The notes below the pieces were generated by a model. It did not search any database. It saw only the letters and a list, made by a program, of their open reading frames with translations, and was not told the DNA's origin. From Pseudorhodoferax soli (GTDB lineage: Bacteria; Pseudomonadota; Gammaproteobacteria; Burkholderiales; Burkholderiaceae_C): 64,000 nt of DNA. The first letter of the stretch is position 1; every line of letters starts with the position of its first letter. The position numbers and the translations under genes are program-made. Location of the stretch: contig NZ_QPJK01000010.1 of the NCBI RefSeq assembly GCF_003337555.1, positions 186,001 to 250,000 on the forward strand, written 5' to 3'. Of this stretch, positions 52,585 through 63,955 are shown piece after piece.

Positions 52585-53925
52585 TCAACCGGCCGCGGGG
52601 CTGCGCAACGCCCGGCGGTATTGCACCGCCTCGGCGACGTGGCTGGTCTGCAGCTTCTCACTGCCTTGCAGATCGGCGATGGTGCGCGCCACGCGCAGCG
52701 CGCGGTGGATGCCGCGGGCGGACCAGCCCAGCCGCGCCGCGGCATGGTTCAGGAAGCGGCTGGCCTCCTCGGTGCGTGCGGCATGGCGCTCCAGGTCCTG
52801 GCCGGCCAGGGCTTGGTTGCACTGGCCCTGCCGCTGCAGGGCCAGCGCGCGCGCCGCGGTGCAGCGCTCACGCACCGTGGCGGTGCTCTCGGCGGCCGGC
52901 GTGTCCAGCAGTTCCTGGGGCGCCAGCGCGGCAAGCTCCAGGTGCAGGTCGATCCGGTCCAGCAACGGACCGCTGAGCTTGGACTGGTAACGCACCACCT
53001 GGTCGGGGCTGCAGCGGCAGGCGCGGTGGGTGGCGCCGAAGTACCCGCAGGGGCAGGGGTTCATGGCCGCGATGAGCAGGAAGCGTGCAGGGAACTCTGC
53101 GCGCTGGGCGGCGCGGGCGATCGCGATGCGCCCCGTCTCCAGGGGCTCGCGCAGGGCTTCCAGCGCGGCACGGGGGAACTCGACCAGCTCGTCCAGAAAC
53201 AGAACGCCGTGGTGCGCCAGCGAGATCTCGCCGGGCCGGGGTGGCGATCCGCCGCCGACCAGGGCCACGGCACTGGCCGTGTGGTGTGGTGCGCGGGTGG
53301 GCCGGCGCATCCACTGCCCCAGCGAGAAAATCCCCGCCAGGCTGGCGACCGCGGCGCTTTGCAGGGCTTCCTCCGTGTGCATGGGTGGCAGCAGGTTGGC
53401 AAAGCGTTGCGCCAGCATGGATTTGCCGCTGCCCGGCGGCCCGACCAGCAGCACGCTGTGCCCGCCAGCGGCAGCGATCTCCAACGCCCGCTTGGCAGCG
53501 GACTGGCCTTTGACATCCGCCAGGTCCGGGCCCGCGGCGGCGGCCGGCGGCAGGCCTGCCTGCAGCAGGGTCCAGCCATCGCCCGCAGGCGCTGCGGGGC
53601 TGCCGCCCGGCGGAAACGCGGCCACCACGTCCAGCAGATGCCGGGCACGCACGACCTGCATGTCCGGCACCAGGGCGGCCTCCTCGGCACTGCCGGGCGG
53701 CAGGACCAGCGTGGGCGGGTGGGCCTGGCCGTGCAGCGCCAGGCTCATGGCCAGCGCGCCGTGCACGGGCCGCAGTTCGCCCGACAGCGACAGCTCCCCG
53801 GCGAACTCGTGGCCGGCCAGCCGTCCGGCGTCGACTTGTCCGCTGGCCGCCAGGATGCCCAGTGCGATGGGCAGGTCGAAGCGGCCGGAATCCTTGGGCA
53901 GGTCGGCCGGAGCCAGGTTGACCGT
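52585..53925 (-). pseudogene. comM: comM/yifB, 5'-truncated by an insertion
   Basis: The leftward frame encodes the C-terminal 446 residues of the Mg-chelatase-like AAA+ protein ComM (YifB), a DNA branch-migration helicase used in natural transformation. The retained part runs from TVNLAPADLPKDSGRFDLPIALGILAASGQVD, through Walker A LLVGPPGSGKSMLAQR, GVLFLDELVEFPRAALEALREPLE and the MNPCPCGYFG zinc-like loop to the normal end. Homology stops at about 53925, where TVNLAP would be preceded by KI/RI in intact ComM; upstream lies foreign DNA. About 70 N-terminal residues are missing. A downstream ATG (53766) could still be used, but the protein would lack the first domain, so it is probably inactive. 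Confidence 0.85.
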
Positions 53926-54013
53926 CGAGCTCTATGTAATCTATCGGAATGAACACGGTAGCGCCGTCCACGAAGGACGAGGTAGGCTCTACTATGCTCG
54001 AACAGGGTAGATC

Positions 54014-55870
54014 ATGATCGTAAGGCTGCTTCCCCAGATCGCGGTGCACACCCAGATGAAGGTGCACCAGCGCACCTATAAGCGCACAGAGGTGTTCGAC
54101 AGCCGACTGTTCCCGGCTCGGTCGCTCGCGTGGGTGTGGCCGCAGCTCCACGAGCTCGGGCGGAGGTCCCGGCTATCGCCGGAGCAGGATCAAGAAATGC
54201 GGTACTTACAGCGGGGCTTGAGGATCGCGAGCAAGCTGAAGACATGGATGGACATCGCGACAACCCGCCCGGAAGACGTCGTTCTGGAGCAGGTGCTCGC
54301 GCTGTTCAATGAGTACGAAGACAACCTTGTCACGACCGTCGGTGACAACAACAGCTCCGCCCGCCTCAGTGGGTCCATCCGAAACTTAGTGGAGCGTGTT
54401 GTAAAGAAACACTCTAAAGATGCTCGAACGTCCAACATTCGCCAGCATTACAGAGTCCGTTGCGTCATCCGATCAAGAGGCAGGGCTTTACTCAGCGATG
54501 TGCCACATCCCGCCCGCCCGCTCATTAAGGCGCTACCTCACGAATCGCTTTCCCAGCTGACGAAGGAAACGACCGCGGTCCTAAGCTGGGATTTGGAGCA
54601 GTTCAACAGGGCCGCCGTGGCAGTCCTGCGTAGATATGAGTTGGCACTGGAAAACGTCCAGTTGCTGAGAAACCTCCGAATAGCTCCCGCTGACGGAGAA
54701 AGCATAAGAAACAAGGTTCTCCGCCTTGCTTATGTGGGAGACGAGCAGAACTGGAGTGCGGAAGAACTCCAGACCTATGTGGCTCTGGAGCTTGAAATAA
54801 GGGAAGGCAAGGCACAAGAGTTTGGTAGACCCGAGTATCCAAAACAACGATACCCGCACAATCTAAATGATTATATGAAAGGGCTATTGTGCGGACTTTC
54901 AAATGGCACCACTTTGCCATTCTGGCTTGACATAGAAATAGCACCTCCAGTTGAGGTGCTGCTCTCGTGTGCATTGATTATTCAGATGAAAACGGCATGG
55001 AACTTTATCTCCGTGCTCGAACTAGAGCCCCACATGCTGGTAGCGGACAAATTCCCCCTACAACTGCAATCCACCAAACCTAAAACGAAGGACAAAACGC
55101 CCATTGTTCTGATCGAGCGGTCAGATGAAGAAGTACTTTTGGCGTTGAAAGTTCTTAGGGAGAGATATCAACGGTTGATATTGAGTGGAATTCAAGGGCC
55201 TAGCGTATTTGCAAGCTCCCGATCTGCCCGTAGCGGAAAAGGTGACGCAGTCAGCGGGTGGGATAGCTCTTTAAAAAAGTTCTGCCGTACATACAGCCTG
55301 CCCACGTGCTCCGCTGAGATGGTTAGGAATCAGGTCTTGGCCTATCGGGCAACTACACGGAGTATTTTAAGTGCGCGATCAACCGCTGGGCATCTCAGCG
55401 AAAACACCACACTAGGCTACATAAACAAAATCCTAGTCCAGCGCCTGAACTCCGCGAACTCGTTTGAGTTCGATAAGCGGTTTGACGCGACCGTACATTA
55501 CATGATTGACCCGAAACGCGTTGCAAAAGACCAGAAAATTCTTGCGTATCCGATAGGCGACGGCGCATCATGCAAATCTCCGTCGCAGCCTCCAAAGCAG
55601 GAATGGCTGGTTGATGGTGCTTGCAGTGGGCGCGAATGCCATAAAAACGGCGGCTGCCCGAACAGAAAAATAGTCATAGATTTGGCCAGAATCGAAGAGG
55701 TCGTTCGAACAAAGCGCTATTACGACGCCAACGCAATTCGACTGCTTAACGAGAACGAGGCCGCTTTTGCAGCAGATCATCTGCCCAATCTGGAGTTCAA
55801 CTATGCTCTGTTCGGCCTTCTGAAGCGCGGACCCTACAGGCATCTGGTCAAGAGGTTCGACAATGAGTGA
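54014..55870 (+). CDS. Large tyrosine-recombinase-like protein with degenerate active site (gene 1 of module)
   Basis: This 618-aa protein starts MIVRLLPQIAVHTQMKVHQR. Its C-terminal half has the shape of a tyrosine recombinase catalytic domain ending AGHLSENTTLGYINK, with the candidate nucleophile Tyr469. However, the first catalytic Arg region reads MKTAWNFISVLELE (no Arg) and the HxxR box is NQVLAYRAT, so key residues look lost. After the fold comes a Cys/His cluster (CSGRECHKNGGCPNRK, near residue 540) that could bind zinc. It overlaps gene 2 by eight bases. It may be an accessory recombinase or DNA-binding partner. I do not recognise a named family. Confidence 0.75.
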   Translation: MIVRLLPQIAVHTQMKVHQRTYKRTEVFDSRLFPARSLAWVWPQLHELGRRSRLSPEQDQEMRYLQRGLRIASKLKTWMDIATTRPEDVVLEQVLALFNEYEDNLVTTVGDNNSSARLSGSIRNLVERVVKKHSKDARTSNIRQHYRVRCVIRSRGRALLSDVPHPARPLIKALPHESLSQLTKETTAVLSWDLEQFNRAAVAVLRRYELALENVQLLRNLRIAPADGESIRNKVLRLAYVGDEQNWSAEELQTYVALELEIREGKAQEFGRPEYPKQRYPHNLNDYMKGLLCGLSNGTTLPFWLDIEIAPPVEVLLSCALIIQMKTAWNFISVLELEPHMLVADKFPLQLQSTKPKTKDKTPIVLIERSDEEVLLALKVLRERYQRLILSGIQGPSVFASSRSARSGKGDAVSGWDSSLKKFCRTYSLPTCSAEMVRNQVLAYRATTRSILSARSTAGHLSENTTLGYINKILVQRLNSANSFEFDKRFDATVHYMIDPKRVAKDQKILAYPIGDGASCKSPSQPPKQEWLVDGACSGRECHKNGGCPNRKIVIDLARIEEVVRTKRYYDANAIRLLNENEAAFAADHLPNLEFNYALFGLLKRGPYRHLVKRFDNE

Positions 55871-58139
55871 AGCAGCCGAGAAATCAGAGGCGAGCGGCGC
55901 TGCGCCTGAGTTTGAATGCGTTAGCAGGAAGATACGGTTCGATCTTGCGTCTCGCACAATCTCGGTAAAGCGGTCCATAGTTCGCGCCGACGAAGAGCCC
56001 TGGGCTGATTTAGGCGTCCAATACGCTTGGATGCCTGCCTCTCCCCTTCATCCCGCACCGACAAAACTTGTCGAACACGACCAATTGTTCTGGTTGCTAG
56101 TAGTTTCACTAGATTGTTATGCAGCTAAACAGAAGGGATCAAAGACCTTCCATACAGTCGTAACCGACATATGCAGAACTCTTGTCAAAACATTTGAGTA
56201 CCTATGGATCGAAGGTTTCTATGATCCTCGTGACGCACCAGAAGCAGTTTGGCAAAAGCTTCGGACAACTCTTGCTAGAGGGAGTTGGAATGCCGCGCTA
56301 CGAACAGAACAGAGAGCGATAAACTTTGTTGCCGACAACCCTAACACGGCCGCGAATTATATCTATCGCAACTGGAAAGGAAAGATAAGCCTACGAGATG
56401 AGTTTCGCGAAGCTCTTGGGACGAACATAGCTGGTTTAGAGACTCGGGCGCTCAAAAGCATCGTGGTACAGGCTACTTCCAAACGTGATGACGATGACGG
56501 GCGCTACAAATTTGGTGTTGCAAAGCAAATGTCTGAGACCATGCTGATCCAGACATTGCGCGCTCATGATTTGCTAGGAATGCTCCCTGAAAGATATCGC
56601 GTCAAAACGATTCCCAGAGAGAGCGCCTCCGGATTCGCACAGGAGAACGGAAGGAAAGGGAACCGGACAGAGAATATCGAACCAGAAGTCTGGGCAAAGG
56701 TGCTTGTGCACGCATACAAATGGATTTACGACTTCGGCCCGTTCGTTGTTGAAGCAGTCCGCGTAATTGCAATCCATTTGGAGCCCTACTTCTCTACCGA
56801 GATGCGCCTCCGAGCCGACGCTAATGAATCCGTAGCTTCTTACCGCGCAAGCCTGATGAGGCGTGCACTGCCCAAAATTACCGAGGTACAGGCGCTGAGC
56901 GCGGCGATAGGGTTAGAGATTACTAATTACAGCAGGAAAGAGAACCCAGACGGCGAGACTTCAGTTAACGCCGTTCTAAACCAACTGTTGTCATCATGCT
57001 TTATCGTAATTGCTTCAATGAATGCACGACGCAAGGATGAGGTTAGCGGAAGAGCTGTCGGTATATACGCTGGGGCACTAAAACAGATTGATCCGCACCG
57101 CGATGTGTATGAATGCGACTTCTATGTTGAAAAGACAGTGCAAGACTACGTTCCATTCCTTGTGAACAATGTTTCCGCGACGGCGATTCAACTTGTGGAC
57201 GACGTAGCAGAGGTGGCATGGTTCTGGCGAGAGGCGGTTAACGAACAACAGGGAGCAGCGGGACGTGAAAGAAAAGTTTTCTTTCTGCCGGGTTTTGTCG
57301 GTGGCAAAAAGGGGAAGCCGATATGGTTTGAGTTCGATGCAAACCAAGACGAGCCAGCGCAGGCATTTATTCGAGACGCGTTGGGAGAACTCGCATCGCA
57401 ATTCAAGGTAAAAGCCCACATGTTCCGACGAGGATATGGACTTCTCTACCACTACCGATATGAGAACGCCACGCTCGTTGCCTTGTCTCAAAAGTATGGG
57501 CATCTCGACCTAAACTCCACCCGTCACTACATAACGAATGGGACGGAAACAGAACTTGGAAAGACGGCCGCAGCAAAATGGGCATTACCTTCAAATCCAG
57601 TTCAACGTGCTCAATTGGATCAACGCAAGGAAATGCAAGCGGAGATTGAAGACGTGGGTTTGGGAAAGTTAGAAAATTTTGTGCGCGATGTAATCGGAGG
57701 CGCGCGAACTTTTGGAGGTGGTTTCTCCAAGTTGGTTGCTCGTTATCACAGGATTCTTAGCGCAAGAGTAGATTACGACCAAATGAGTCTTGCGGCGCAG
57801 GCGAAGAGCTTGATGGCGTCGTTGGTGGATCGCGGCCACACTTCGCATCCTCTTAAGACCAATACCTGCTGGGCTGGCCGAAACCGCAAGCATGCTGCAT
57901 GCGGAGTTAAAAAGGAAGCAGTAGCACGGGAGAATGCATCTGCCATGGTTTGCTCGCGATGCCCCTATTCAGAAACGAACGAAGTTCAGCTTAAGACCCT
58001 CGAGCGGGACCTAGCCTTCCTTTCTTCTCACGGGCTTGCGGCCGCCGAAACTGTGAAAGGCCGCGCTGCTATACAAGAGCAAGAAAACCTCCGACGCGTC
58101 ATTGTTTTGCATAGATTGAGGTTGGGTCTAGACAAATGA
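55863..58139 (+). CDS. Tyrosine recombinase (gene 2 of module)
   Basis: This 758-aa protein has a complete tyrosine-recombinase active site: Arg in NARRKDEVSG (389-390), the HxxR box HMFRRG (His519, Arg522), GHLDLNSTRHYI with its second His and the nucleophile Tyr556. A C-terminal Cys set (CWAGRNRKHAACG...CSRCPY) beyond residue 670 looks like a zinc finger. At about 760 residues it is nearly twice the size of ordinary phage integrases, as in the large TnpB of Tn554-like transposons. It overlaps gene 1 by eight and gene 3 by four bases. It should cut and join the attachment site in comM. Confidence 0.85.
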   Translation: MSEAAEKSEASGAAPEFECVSRKIRFDLASRTISVKRSIVRADEEPWADLGVQYAWMPASPLHPAPTKLVEHDQLFWLLVVSLDCYAAKQKGSKTFHTVVTDICRTLVKTFEYLWIEGFYDPRDAPEAVWQKLRTTLARGSWNAALRTEQRAINFVADNPNTAANYIYRNWKGKISLRDEFREALGTNIAGLETRALKSIVVQATSKRDDDDGRYKFGVAKQMSETMLIQTLRAHDLLGMLPERYRVKTIPRESASGFAQENGRKGNRTENIEPEVWAKVLVHAYKWIYDFGPFVVEAVRVIAIHLEPYFSTEMRLRADANESVASYRASLMRRALPKITEVQALSAAIGLEITNYSRKENPDGETSVNAVLNQLLSSCFIVIASMNARRKDEVSGRAVGIYAGALKQIDPHRDVYECDFYVEKTVQDYVPFLVNNVSATAIQLVDDVAEVAWFWREAVNEQQGAAGRERKVFFLPGFVGGKKGKPIWFEFDANQDEPAQAFIRDALGELASQFKVKAHMFRRGYGLLYHYRYENATLVALSQKYGHLDLNSTRHYITNGTETELGKTAAAKWALPSNPVQRAQLDQRKEMQAEIEDVGLGKLENFVRDVIGGARTFGGGFSKLVARYHRILSARVDYDQMSLAAQAKSLMASLVDRGHTSHPLKTNTCWAGRNRKHAACGVKKEAVARENASAMVCSRCPYSETNEVQLKTLERDLAFLSSHGLAAAETVKGRAAIQEQENLRRVIVLHRLRLGLDK

Positions 58140-58759
58140 AAAAGACAAACATGTCGTTGGCTCGCGGCGCGAGTTCAGATTCTGCGCCTGGTCTCAAGCC
58201 TGCTGTAGCCTTCGGAAATCAAAAAGCGGCCGAGAAAAGTATCAGAGATAAGCTTGCAATTATCGAAGGCGCTATAAAGGCTTATGCGAAAGAAAAGGTG
58301 GCGAAGTCTTTGGAAGGCCTTCCTCCCACGAAGCGCCAATTCTACTTATGGACACCCATAACCGCATCAGGAGAGAAGTTAAGTACAAATAATCCTGATA
58401 CCGCTAAGCAATATCCGCCATTGCTGATGCGCATTGAGTCTGCCATTGAACTGATACGTCTGGAGCGGGGCCGCATAGCCATCACGCCTTCAGTCAAAGA
58501 GGATTCCTTGGCAGCCGCGAGGCGGTCATCCTCCCTGCACAAAGCTTTACGCGAAATTGCGGAGCGCGAGCTCATTGCGCAGCGTAGGCTCGTCCAGATG
58601 GCGAAGCAGGAGTTGGAGAACGCTCAGGCATCGCTTAACTCGACGCAAAAGGAGGCGGCAGCCTTGCAGAAAAACCTACGAGCTGAAATTGCGGCCTTGA
58701 GCGCTGAGAACTCTCGACTGGTCAAGCTGAACAAAACGGTCGTTCTGCTCAAGCGATGA
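58136..58759 (+). CDS. Small coiled-coil protein (gene 3 of module)
   Basis: This 207-aa protein has a Lys-rich N-terminus (NQKAAEKSIRDKLAIIEGAIKAYAKEKV), a middle part with GLPPTKRQFYLWTP, and a long heptad-repeat coiled coil from about residue 140 (REIAERELIAQRRLVQMAKQEL...) to the end. It has no recognisable catalytic motif. Its place between the second and the last recombinase, with four-base overlaps on both sides, is like the small tnpC gene of Tn554. A scaffold that pairs with the zipper of gene 4 is a reasonable guess. Confidence 0.75.
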   Translation: MKKTNMSLARGASSDSAPGLKPAVAFGNQKAAEKSIRDKLAIIEGAIKAYAKEKVAKSLEGLPPTKRQFYLWTPITASGEKLSTNNPDTAKQYPPLLMRIESAIELIRLERGRIAITPSVKEDSLAAARRSSSLHKALREIAERELIAQRRLVQMAKQELENAQASLNSTQKEAAALQKNLRAEIAALSAENSRLVKLNKTVVLLKR

Positions 58760-60045
58760 ACTCCCGTTTCAAGCTTTCTTTGGTCGAGTGCGGCGGGGGC
58801 TCATTCGCCGCTATTTTATATGATCTCCAGCGCTGTAGAGTGGTATGGGAAGTCACTGACTACGCCGAAAATCTAATTTCCATCCTTCATTTCAAGCCGA
58901 CTAGTATTCATCAGGAGATTGGGCATCTCCGCGTATTTTGGGCGTATTTGCACGCGCACGGCATTGCTATCGAGAAGTTCACAGACCGCGACCTGACTGG
59001 GTTTCGGGACTATATTACTAGGAGCGCCGAGAATAGTCCGGCGCGTCGTCAGCATCGACCGAAAGCTGCGAAAAAGACAGCTAACGCTAAGTTGACGCGT
59101 GTCTATGATTGGCTGATATGGCTTCAAGAAACTGGGCGCATTTCAATAAATTCCATCGGTCGAATTGGTGCGAGGGTGCAGAGTGCGTTGAATGGCAGTA
59201 GTTTGTCCTATCACGCAAAGGAGAATCGGAAATTGCGGCTGGAGGATAAGTATCCTCTCCTTCACGAGGAGAGCGACAGTCGGAGTAAGCACACCGTTGC
59301 TTCATTCATTCCAACTGAGGAAACCGTTGACCTACTGCACGAGACCTTTTTTTCGAAAGGTTCAACAAGCCACATTCGGCATCGAAATTCAATGATGGTC
59401 GATTTTGTAGCTTATTCCGGTTTCAGGAGGAACTCAATGAGGTCGCTAAAAGTGGAGCAATTCATCGGTGATGACTACTTGACTAGAACATCCGACACCG
59501 TAACGATAAGGCCAGCCGAGCAGAAGTTTGGTTACCAAAACACTTTCGATATCCCGGTCGTTTTGCACAACAATATGCGTGCTTTCATCCTTACCGAGCG
59601 CGCGCAATTGCTTCGCGACAAGGGTAAAAACGAATCTGTGGCGAAGGGATTTGTCTTCCTTTCTGACAGGAATTGTACGCCTTTGGACGGGAGAACGATT
59701 ACCGCTATCGTTTCCGGAGCTATGCGTGCTAACGGGGCGCCGAAAGGAGCAGCCGTTCACGCGTTTAGAGCTAAGTATGCGGTGGAAGCTACAGAAGATG
59801 AATTCGAAGATCGTCGAGAGCGAGGGTTGGATACGAGTGAAGACACAATAAGTCGTGCGGTGGCCGTTAAGCTGGGGCACTCTAACCCGGAGTCACAAAG
59901 GGCGTACACAGCCCGCCATGCTTCAATAGAGCTGGTAGGAGCAAAGTCTAGACGAATACGAAAATTAGATGAGCTGAAGGAGGAGAATGAGCGATTGCGT
60001 CTAGAGAACGATAGGTTGCTGCAGCAATTAAAAGACAGCAGGTGA
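58756..60045 (+). CDS. Tyrosine recombinase with C-terminal leucine zipper (gene 4 of module)
   Basis: This 429-aa integrase has an N-terminal SAM-like core-binding domain (RDLTGFRDYITRSAE) and a full catalytic set: Arg in AYSGFRRNSMRSLKV (about 222), HAFRAKYAVE (His335, Arg338), KLGHSNPESQRAYTARH (His375) and nucleophile Tyr384. The last 35 residues (LDELKEENERLRLENDRLLQQL) are a near-perfect leucine zipper, unusual for this family, and could dimerise with itself or with gene 3. It overlaps gene 3 by four bases (ATGA). About 75 residues between HAFR and the tail are longer than in phage integrases. Confidence 0.87.
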   Translation: MNSRFKLSLVECGGGSFAAILYDLQRCRVVWEVTDYAENLISILHFKPTSIHQEIGHLRVFWAYLHAHGIAIEKFTDRDLTGFRDYITRSAENSPARRQHRPKAAKKTANAKLTRVYDWLIWLQETGRISINSIGRIGARVQSALNGSSLSYHAKENRKLRLEDKYPLLHEESDSRSKHTVASFIPTEETVDLLHETFFSKGSTSHIRHRNSMMVDFVAYSGFRRNSMRSLKVEQFIGDDYLTRTSDTVTIRPAEQKFGYQNTFDIPVVLHNNMRAFILTERAQLLRDKGKNESVAKGFVFLSDRNCTPLDGRTITAIVSGAMRANGAPKGAAVHAFRAKYAVEATEDEFEDRRERGLDTSEDTISRAVAVKLGHSNPESQRAYTARHASIELVGAKSRRIRKLDELKEENERLRLENDRLLQQLKDSR

Positions 60046-61993: not shown

Positions 61994-63955
61994 TCAACGA
62001 AAGTCGCGTGAGGCAGTCTCCAGGTCGCCAAGCATTGGCGTGAGGTCTTCTAGCTTGCGAGCGATGAGGCTGCAGGCATCCCCAGCTCGTTGCCACTGGC
62101 CATGTACTGCAAGTAGACGAGAGCGAAGAAGCTCCTTTGGCTGTGCATCTCTCACGCTTGGCCAGACGATGACCTGGACATTGCCTGTCTCGTCCTCGAG
62201 GCTGACGAAGACGACTCCCTTGGCGGTTTCAGGTCTCTGTCTCAGGGTGACGATTCCGCAAAACGATGCCGCGATGCCGTTGCGCCTCCTCATCAACTGT
62301 GAGGCCGTCACGAAGCGGCGCTCGTCCAGTTTGGGCCGCAGAAGCTTCATCGGGTGGCTCCGCAACGTCAGCCCCAACGTGCGGTAGTCCCAGGTCACTT
62401 CTTCGCCCTCGGGCGCTGCCCGCAGTTCAAGCACCGGTTCATCCACAGGCGCCTGCCTCAGCAGCATTGGCGGGCGGCGCAACGCGGCTGCATCCCATAC
62501 CTGCTGACGGCGATGCCCGCTCAGGCTGCGCAGCGCATCTGCGCCCGCGAGCTGCCGCATGTCCTGGTGCTCTAGTTCAGCCAGGCGGGCCAGCTCCTCG
62601 GCGCTTTCGAAGTAGGCCTCGTCCCTGGCCCGAACGATGCGGTCGGCAACATCTTTCTTGAAGCCGTCGACCATGCGGAGGCCGAGTCGGACCGCGGGCT
62701 GGTGTTCGATGTTTTCCATCGTGCAGTCCCACTCGCTGGAGAGAACATCGGGCGGCCGTACCTCGACCTGGTGCCGCTGAGCATCCTGCACAAGCTGGCT
62801 TGCACTGTAGAAGCCCATGGGCTGGCTGTTGAGCAGTCCACACAGGAACTCAGCTGGGTAGTGACACTTCGCCCAGCAGCTGGCGTAGACCAGGATGGCG
62901 AAGCTGGCTGCGTGGCTCTCCGGAAAGCCATACGAGCTGAAGCCCTTCATCTGCTCGAACACATTGCGTGCGAAGTCCTCGGTGTACCCGCGATCCACCA
63001 TGCCGCCGATGATGCGCGGCTCGTACTTGTTCAAGCTGCCTGTCCGGCGCCACGCAGCCATCGCCCGTCGCAGTCCGTCCGCTTCGCCAGGCGTGAAGCC
63101 GGCGCAGAGGATCGCCAGCTGCATGCACTGCTCCTGGAACAGCGGGACGCCAAGCGTGCGCCCCAAGGCCTTCTCAATCTCTGGGCTCGGGTAGGTCACC
63201 GGGACCGTTCCGTTGCGCCGCTCCAGGTATGGATGTACCGAGCCACCTTGGATCGGACCGGGCCGCACGATGGCCACCTGCACCACTAGGTCGTAGAAGC
63301 GTTGGGGGCGGTGCCGCGGCAGCATGCTCATCTGCGCGCGGCTCTCCACTTGGAATGTCCCCACCGTGTCTGCCTTGCAGATCATCTTGTAGGTGACCGG
63401 GTCTTCAGACGGGATGTCCTGCATTTCGAACACGTGCCCCTTGCGCTGGCCAATGAGGTCCAGCGTCTTCCTCAGTGCTGTGAGCATGCCCAGGGCCAAG
63501 ACGTCGACCTTCAGCAGCCCCATGAGGTCCAGGTCGTCTTTGTCCCACTGGATGACCGTGCGGTCAGGCATCGACGCGTTCTCGATGGGAACGAGGCGGC
63601 TCAAGGGCCCTGACGTCAGGACGAATCCGCCGGTGTGCTGCCCGAGGTGGCGGGGGAAGCCCAGCAGTTGCTCCGTCAACGTGCGCAGCTGCTTCACGAG
63701 CAGGCTGTCCTTGTTGAGCCCTGCCTCCGTCACCAGGTCGTCGGTAAGGTCCAGCTCCCACGAGCTTGTGCCCTTGGCCAGTACGTCCAGAGTTGTCTTA
63801 TCGAGGTCGAGCGCTTTTCCGACGTCACGCAGCGCGCTCTTGGGCCTGTAGCTCGCCACCGTGGCCGTCAATGCGGCGCGGTCGCGACCGTATTTGGCGT
63901 ACAGGTACTGGATGACCTCTTCACGTCGCTCGTGTTCGAAGTCGACGTCTACGTC
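61994..63955 (-). pseudogene. dnaE2: Error-prone DNA polymerase DnaE2, N-terminally truncated
   Basis: The leftward frame encodes 653 residues of DnaE2, the translesion polymerase that works with ImuA and ImuB in SOS mutagenesis. It starts abruptly with DVDVDFEHERREEVIQYLYAKYGRDRAALTATVASYRPKSALRDVGKALDLD, retains DLMGLLKVDVLALGMLTALRK (third catalytic Asp), GPIQGGSVHPYLERR, VPLFQEQCMQLAI, GFPESHAASFAILVYAS and the OB-fold end. Full-length DnaE2 is about 1050 aa, so roughly 400 N-terminal residues (PHP and half of the palm) are absent. An in-frame TGA stands directly before DVDVDF. The palm Asp pair is the very first thing left, so activity is unlikely unless the window edge is an assembly break. 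Confidence 0.8.

Follow-up and report, generated by a model that had tools for sequence, protein, structure and literature searches.

What kind of element interrupts comM in Pseudorhodoferax soli, and how would its genes move it? We examined this question in a 64,000-nucleotide stretch of the P. soli genome (the window; contig NZ_QPJK01000010.1, positions 186,001 to 250,000), in which four overlapping genes, here called T, B, S and A, abut a truncated comM gene. A preliminary description of the window, made from its letters and open reading frames (ORFs), had proposed a distinct family of site-specific integrative elements. We conclude, with high confidence, that the four genes are the mobility operon of an integrative island that works much as two published classes do, the strand-biased circularizing integrative elements (SEs) and the GInts, and that it forms a sister group with the permuted order T-B-S-A. 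The features that carry the argument are as follows, in window coordinates.

52585-53925, minus strand: C-terminal part of comM (YifB Mg-chelatase-like ATPase; TIGR00368, E value 1.9e-121 for 52585-53766)
53926-53931, unstranded: module-end spacer of 6 bp, CGAGCT on the plus strand and AGCTCG in comM orientation, non-native to comM
53932-53939, unstranded: 8-bp terminal arm CTATGTAA; the far island end has CTATGTAG
54014-55870, plus strand: gene T, 618 aa, tyrosine-recombinase-like, with a Cys-rich C-terminal part
55863-58139, plus strand: gene B, 758 aa, a large tyrosine recombinase (R390, H519xxR522, H547, Y556) that has a Cys tail
58136-58759, plus strand: gene S, 207 aa, small protein with a coiled-coil-like C-terminal half
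58756-60045, plus strand: gene A, 429 aa, tyrosine recombinase of ordinary size with R224, H335xxR338, H375 and Y384

The four plus-strand ORFs span 54014-60045 and, as first described, overlap by 8, 4 and 4 bases in DNA of lowered GC content, which falls from 0.725 (53001-54000) to 0.49-0.55 (54001-60000). The break in comM is also where the preliminary description had placed it: the minus-strand remnant starts at base 53925 with the ACG (Thr) codon of TVNLAP. We found the N-terminal half on another contig of the window genome, G000 (C4:651500-651712), where it adjoins the far island end. Intact comM of four genomes from the same genus (G002-G005) reads AACAAG AGGATC AC(A/G)GTCAACC at this place, and all native comM bases of that stretch are retained across the two halves. 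The window spacer was judged against these four genes and the far junction. The island measures at least 58.6 kb, made up of C10:239926-277767 (37.8 kb) and C4:651698-672436 (20.7 kb).

Five distinct T-B-S-A islands could be delimited at both ends. Four lie in comM, all at the same codon, and one lies in dcd, the dCTP deaminase gene, of Methylibium petroleiphilum PM1, where it is present on the chromosome and on a megaplasmid. The comM halves are ~31.6 kb apart in G771 and ~61.2 kb apart in G630; in Acidovorax soli (L026/G487) the island is ~82.7 kb long, with both halves of comM on one contig. The ends are given below in target-gene orientation, module end first, with the 6-bp spacers in brackets.

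Window: TTACATAG[AGCTCG] ... [AGGATC]CTATGTAG
Acidovorax soli: CTACATCG[AGCTCG] ... [CGCATC]CAATGTAG
G630: GTACTTCG[ACCAGT] ... [CGCATC]CGAAGTAG
G771: CTACAGGG[CGGTTC] ... [CGGATC]CCCTGTAG
Methylibium chromosome: CTACATTA[GGCATC] ... [GGGATC]TAATGTAG
Methylibium plasmid: CTACATTA[GGGATC] ... [GGCATC]TAATGTAG

All five islands have inverted 8-bp arms around a 6-bp spacer, and all five carry the motif GTAGTCAAG at the far end. The preliminary description had expected one short core to border every copy. Instead, the arms vary between islands and agree within an island (19/20 at four variable positions, 37/40 overall), and the spacer varies as well. Among the 120 pairings of the five islands, only one, the true pairing, gave arm agreement of that level. 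The near arm of the G630 island was read before its far end was known, and 7 of 8 bases then fit. Common to comM and dcd is the target core nGnATC|AyNGTsAAC, where n stands for any base, y for C or T and s for C or G; at this place the two proteins, otherwise unrelated, both read (R or G)-I-(T or I)-V-N. The proposed family of site-specific islands is therefore real, but comM does not define it: the predicted break at the TVNLAP codon was found in four islands, and the Methylibium island lies in dcd, a different gene with the same target core. Other relatives are placed elsewhere, since comM is unbroken at this site in G570, G608, G675, G494 (taken to be Methylibium PM1) and G488 (the genome of a gammaproteobacterial metagenome-assembled genome [MAG]), all of which carry modules.

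The two Methylibium copies provide the clearest case of movement. Both dcd genes are split at the identical position, and the genome yielded no intact copy of dcd. The chromosomal copy is 39,713 bp long and the plasmid copy 41,011 bp. Stretches of 25,253 and 14,464 bp are identical between them, and the only difference found between them is one ~1.3-kb insertion in the plasmid copy (G494 C2). Since the copies are identical but the flanking dcd sequences differ, the unit itself appears to have moved. Sequence comparison thus indicates that the 39.7-kb unit was relocated recently between two dcd genes. The spacers of the two copies are swapped, and this reciprocity shows spacer transfer. We did not adopt the idea that the module-end 6 bp are a fixed island end: the two copies differ there, reciprocally.

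We searched for relatives of the module in plasmids, viral contigs and genomes. A tblastn search with B matched 4 of 72,556 plasmid records, namely Methylibium petroleiphilum PM1, two Alteromonas and Rhodovastum, of which the Alteromonas and Rhodovastum relatives are more distant; T gave one match and A three in the same records. Scans of viral contigs found no relative. A scan of a genome collection gave 63 pattern matches and two confirmed loci, one in Acidovorax soli and one, of the Alteromonas type, in the gammaproteobacterial MAG. The 758-aa B alone matched its own genome and no other, both among 100 relatives and among 398 genomes of the phylum; profiles were more sensitive and found 7 of 399 same-family and 2 of 369 class-wide genomes, the own genome being counted in each. 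We concluded that the T-B-S-A group is rare in the genomes sampled.

Gene order divides these relatives. T-B-S-A is the order in the window, Acidovorax soli (646, 758, 229 and 422 aa), G630, G771 and both Methylibium copies (629, 719, 212 and 413 aa). In Alteromonas, the gammaproteobacterial MAG and G1112 the order is T-B-S-(small)-helicase-A, and G570 has T-B-S-(646 aa)-A. The helicase gene lies upstream of the last recombinase gene (L003:10652-12847, L027:11709-13904, L004:12372-14687). The Alteromonas helicase is RecD2-like (TIGR01448, 4.1e-117, below the cut-off of that model), and that of Rhodovastum is RecD2-like by its Pfam domains; the G570 product has just a weak HHH_RecD2 match (0.0026), and the G1112 helicase was assigned from its position. 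Some members match the window-group profiles weakly (S of G570, 1%; S of Rhodovastum, 0%; T of Rhodovastum, 40%). In G608, B (99%) and A (98%) match the group profiles; the first two frames and the small protein match none.

The proteins were compared residue by residue, with eight sequences per protein. The residues discussed are those that we take to be catalytic in T, B and A. In T, Asn330 stands where Arg I would be and the His of the HxxR position is lost, so that the protein is degenerate as originally reported. Calling it inactive as well went further than the residues allow: the nucleophile Tyr469 is invariant in all eight relatives, together with Lys355, Arg438 and His460. B and A have the full R/HxxR/H/Y set in the three closest members. 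The claim that the B residues are intact holds for these three; across all eight, R390, R522 and Y556 are kept, but His519 and His547 are not invariant. Similarly, A keeps R224, H335, R338 and Y384, but not H375. The Cys-rich tail attributed to B is a constant feature (C669, C680, C697 and C700 in 8/8). The leucine zipper attributed to A is visible as a zipper-like tail in the window but is not conserved, and L026 lacks it. We agree that S is coiled-coil-like, on the basis of its composition and weak matches to coiled-coil families. A matches the integrase family phrog_216 (3.2e-7). T, B and S have no significant family in Pfam, NCBIfam, PADLOC or PHROGs, only weak listings such as B with phrog_216 at 0.095. 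T is tied to the recombinases through its Alteromonas homologue L003 (Pfam Phage_integrase, 3.5e-7; hhalign of T with L003, 99%), and S aligns with the Alteromonas-type S (hhalign, 89%). An AlphaFold2 model of T from three sequences had a mean pLDDT of 46 and was not used.

The preliminary description saw no plain match for this gene set among Tn554, RIT elements and AbaR islands. Two classes of like make-up, which it did not name, have in fact been published. GInts (Tn6571 family; Bardaji et al. 2017) carry ginABCD, all four of which are essential, make 6-nt staggered cuts, and have targets among which are ssb and the genes for an ABC transporter and a ribonucleotide reductase (PMC5385486). 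SEs carry intA, tfp, intB and srap, occur in Gammaproteobacteria, have a 6-bp footprint, and are described as forming circles with a strand bias and as leaving no empty site (Idola et al. 2023, PMC10214605). The T-B-S-A islands resemble SEs in having an ordinary recombinase, a large recombinase, a recombinase-fold partner and a small coiled-coil protein, as well as inverted ends, a 6-bp spacer and insertion into few sites. We built hhalign profiles from five comM/dcd-group sequences and compared them with profiles from 4-5 SEs, 5-6 GInts and 4-5 NF040692 (recomb_assoc) elements. The profiles exclude the SEs L025 (A cut) and L079 (T split), the GInts L088 (A unannotated) and L090 (no matching D), and the NF040692 loci L075 (A off the contig) and L076 (X). 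B matched SE IntB at 96% over 423 columns and all other references at ≤4%, and A matched GinA at 98% and SE IntA at 95% over 329 columns. T (≤9%) and S (≤3%) matched no SE, GInt or NF040692 profile. Gene content is like that of SEs and GInts, but the order is permuted and T and S match neither class. In a tree of A proteins, midpoint-rooted for drawing only, the T-B-S-A islands and their helicase-bearing kin group with SEs (98/94), apart from GInts and NF040692 elements; the support of the T-B-S-A/helicase group itself is just 64/89, with two long branches.

Other elements with related parts could be set aside more simply. NF040692 elements, which we take to be the Gamma-Mobile-Trio, likewise encode two recombinases together with a small protein in a single operon, but their order is A-B-X, with no T gene, in the complete examples L073, L074 and L077. 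We rejected this identity: G000 has no NF040692 match, and B, A, T and S score ≤12% (S profile, 0%). AbaR and other Tn7-like islands share comM as the target gene and move by DDE-type Tni/Tns transposition. Tn554 and RIT elements also have several tyrosine recombinases in a row, and Tn554 a 6-bp footprint, but as described in PMC10214605 Tn554 has three genes (tnpA-tnpB-tnpC) with no T counterpart, and RIT elements consist of three recombinase genes, with products of 315-410 aa, and have none for a small protein. These two were set apart by description only, and the earlier statement that the module is not AbaR, Tn554 or RIT stands as a judgment by gene set. Our searches of open-licence papers, which do not cover subscription journals, turned up nothing that describes T-B-S-A islands or names dcd as a target. 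As a separate observation, a query with the interrupted ssb-yjcB region led to three E. coli genomes (L083-L085) in which a GInt-like four-gene module lies where ssb ends, followed by the defence gene avs4.

We then considered spacer polarity. In SEs, the native 6 bp are at the module end and the donor 6 bp at the far end (as stated in PMC10214605). In the four comM islands, it is the far-end 6 bp that are comM-like (AGGATC, CGCATC, CGCATC and CGGATC), and the module-end 6 bp are foreign. Of ten intact comM loci tried, nine had the motif (L059 did not), with AGGATC in four, CGCATC in two, and AAGATC, AGAATC and CGCATA in one each. All four comM islands thus appear to reverse the published SE rule. 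A different island was found in another genome of the same genus, G001 (C27:146531-172066; L105, L106), where comM is broken at a different site, after GTTCCTCG. This island has the canonical SE order A-T-B-S (452, 658, 719 and 160 aa) and ends TTATGT/ACATAA with a 6-bp spacer; junctions read by eye against intact sequence showed TCCTCG, which is native, beside the module and TCATGG at the far end, as in the SE rule. Its T is similar to the window T (90% over 135 columns), its A and B are similar to those of SEs (80% and 81%), and its B matches the window-group B at 61%. In the five comM islands, only one of which has the SE order, gene order and spacer polarity seem to go together.

Could the T-B-S-A islands simply be members of a class already described? 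A divergent GInt is an improbable answer. Islands of tens of kilobases with three recombinases and a small protein, a matching size range, an operon at one end, 6-nt exchange and imperfect repeats would suit a GInt, as would the A-GinA match, and GInt families share just 24-40% identity among themselves (PMC5385486). However, the order is T-B-S-A and not ginA-ginB-ginC-ginD, and this reading as stated is refuted by the order test; in addition, hhalign gave 0% for B with GinB, B with GinC and T with GinC, and 3% for S with GinD, the A-protein tree places the islands away from GInts, and comM and dcd are not among the targets that PMC5385486 is cited for here. A somewhat better candidate, though still an unlikely one, is an SE that reached Betaproteobacteria and whose intA moved behind srap. 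The B-IntB and A-IntA matches and the shared 6-bp spacer speak for it, and the G001 island, with SE order, SE-like A and B and a T like that of the window, is a plausible intermediate. Against it stand the gene order (intA-tfp-intB-srap in SEs), the scores of T with Tfp (5%) and S with Srap (0%), the Tyr that T keeps, and the reversed polarity of the four comM islands. The hosts here are beta- as well as gammaproteobacterial, and Alpha- and Betaproteobacteria are reported by Idola et al. to lack homologues of Tfp and Srap (PMC10214605). On the tests made, the T-B-S-A islands belong to neither SEs nor GInts, and some lineages have a RecD2-like helicase before A.

Two further readings concern what the four genes do. 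They might be decayed or passengers, with an insertion sequence, plasmid integration or phage having moved the DNA. The window island contains transposase-like frames, and the end of contig C10 reads like another (both by reading, the latter from an ORF start, without family search), and the evidence for mobility is comparative. Yet the module proteins compared are stop-free in every copy used, the first gene starts at most ~90 bp from the island end in G000, G494 and G630, and the arm-spacer rule holds at both ends of 5/5 module-carrying islands; we consider this reading very improbable. A bolder proposal is a separate replicative ("copy-out") class, in which T, with its Tyr, Arg, His and Lys retained, would be a working half-site partner, polarity would have reversed together with gene order, a RecD2-like motor would unwind the copied strand in the helicase branch, and the G001 island would be a living intermediate. 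We regard it as tentative, less probable than not by a clear distance. We therefore favor an SE- and GInt-like mobility operon with permuted order, an already-known kind of four-gene element that is new in its order, its T and S proteins and its polarity in comM.

As an integrative island of this kind, the element would work as follows, with GInts and SEs as the model for the circle, for the sequence of steps and for any strand bias. A and B most likely cut and join at the arms, T would bind together with them, and S would assist, the part also ascribed to Srap, GinD or TnpC. The two ends would recombine through the inverted arms across the 6-bp spacer, giving a circle (arm-6 bp-arm) that would integrate site-specifically at the core of comM or dcd without any net loss from the target. 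The island ends, spacer, core and recent relocation on which this scheme builds come from the comparisons above; the circular intermediate, a need for all four proteins and their division of labour are presumed to be as in GInts and SEs.

Several points weigh against this interpretation. Homology of T and S to SE and GInt counterparts was undetected, and the two-sequence Alteromonas-type profiles match SE, GInt and NF040692 profiles at ≤11% (1% and 11% with SE IntA and IntB); equal roles with the SE and GInt counterparts are for this reason assumed. Excision, the circle and an empty site are all unobserved in the window organism, where movement is deduced from comparison, and the window island is split over contigs C10 and C4, whose joining is likewise deduced. 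The modules of G570, L003, L027, L004, G1112, G608 and G675 are without resolved ends and stand outside the end counts. The module-end spacer AGCTCG is identical in two diverged islands in different hosts (G000 and G487), which a freely exchanged spacer does not explain. Finally, the swapped Methylibium spacers are compatible with either polarity rule, and the polarity of that transfer is undecidable from the two copies; intact dcd of other genomes has GGCATC in 6/6 cases, contrary to the mirror rule of comM, and if the Methylibium chromosome also had GGCATC natively, the SE rule would be favored there.

In the window, the module is followed by a partial cargo gene:

61994-63871, minus strand: open frame with the C-terminal part only of dnaE2 (error-prone DNA polymerase; NF004225, E value 4.4e-277, model positions 421-1047)

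In Acidovorax soli, full-length dnaE2 and then imuA adjoin the module (L026:14292-19459); the two dnaE2 products are 63% identical over 627 residues. In the Methylibium island, a gene annotated as dCMP deaminase family lies beside A (L002:12946-13509), matching a ComEB model at 1.2e-18 and an anti-phage deaminase model at 1.7e-19, both below the cut-off. Its product could take over from the broken Dcd as a source of dUMP, or the gene could be one for defence. A parallel is SE-6283, which inserts in bcp and carries a bcp homologue (as described in PMC9345347).

How elements that rely on three recombinases plus a helper work is poorly understood. The islands described here suggest that such a four-part machine can be rebuilt with another gene order, a diverged partner and the opposite polarity, so that the roles of its parts become testable by comparison. 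They also offer a sharply defined target core common to two unrelated housekeeping genes, a 39.7-kb unit that appears to have relocated naturally, and an island whose own enzyme may stand in for the gene that it disrupts. For comM, they mean that tyrosine-recombinase islands enter this gene too, beside the Tn7-like ones.

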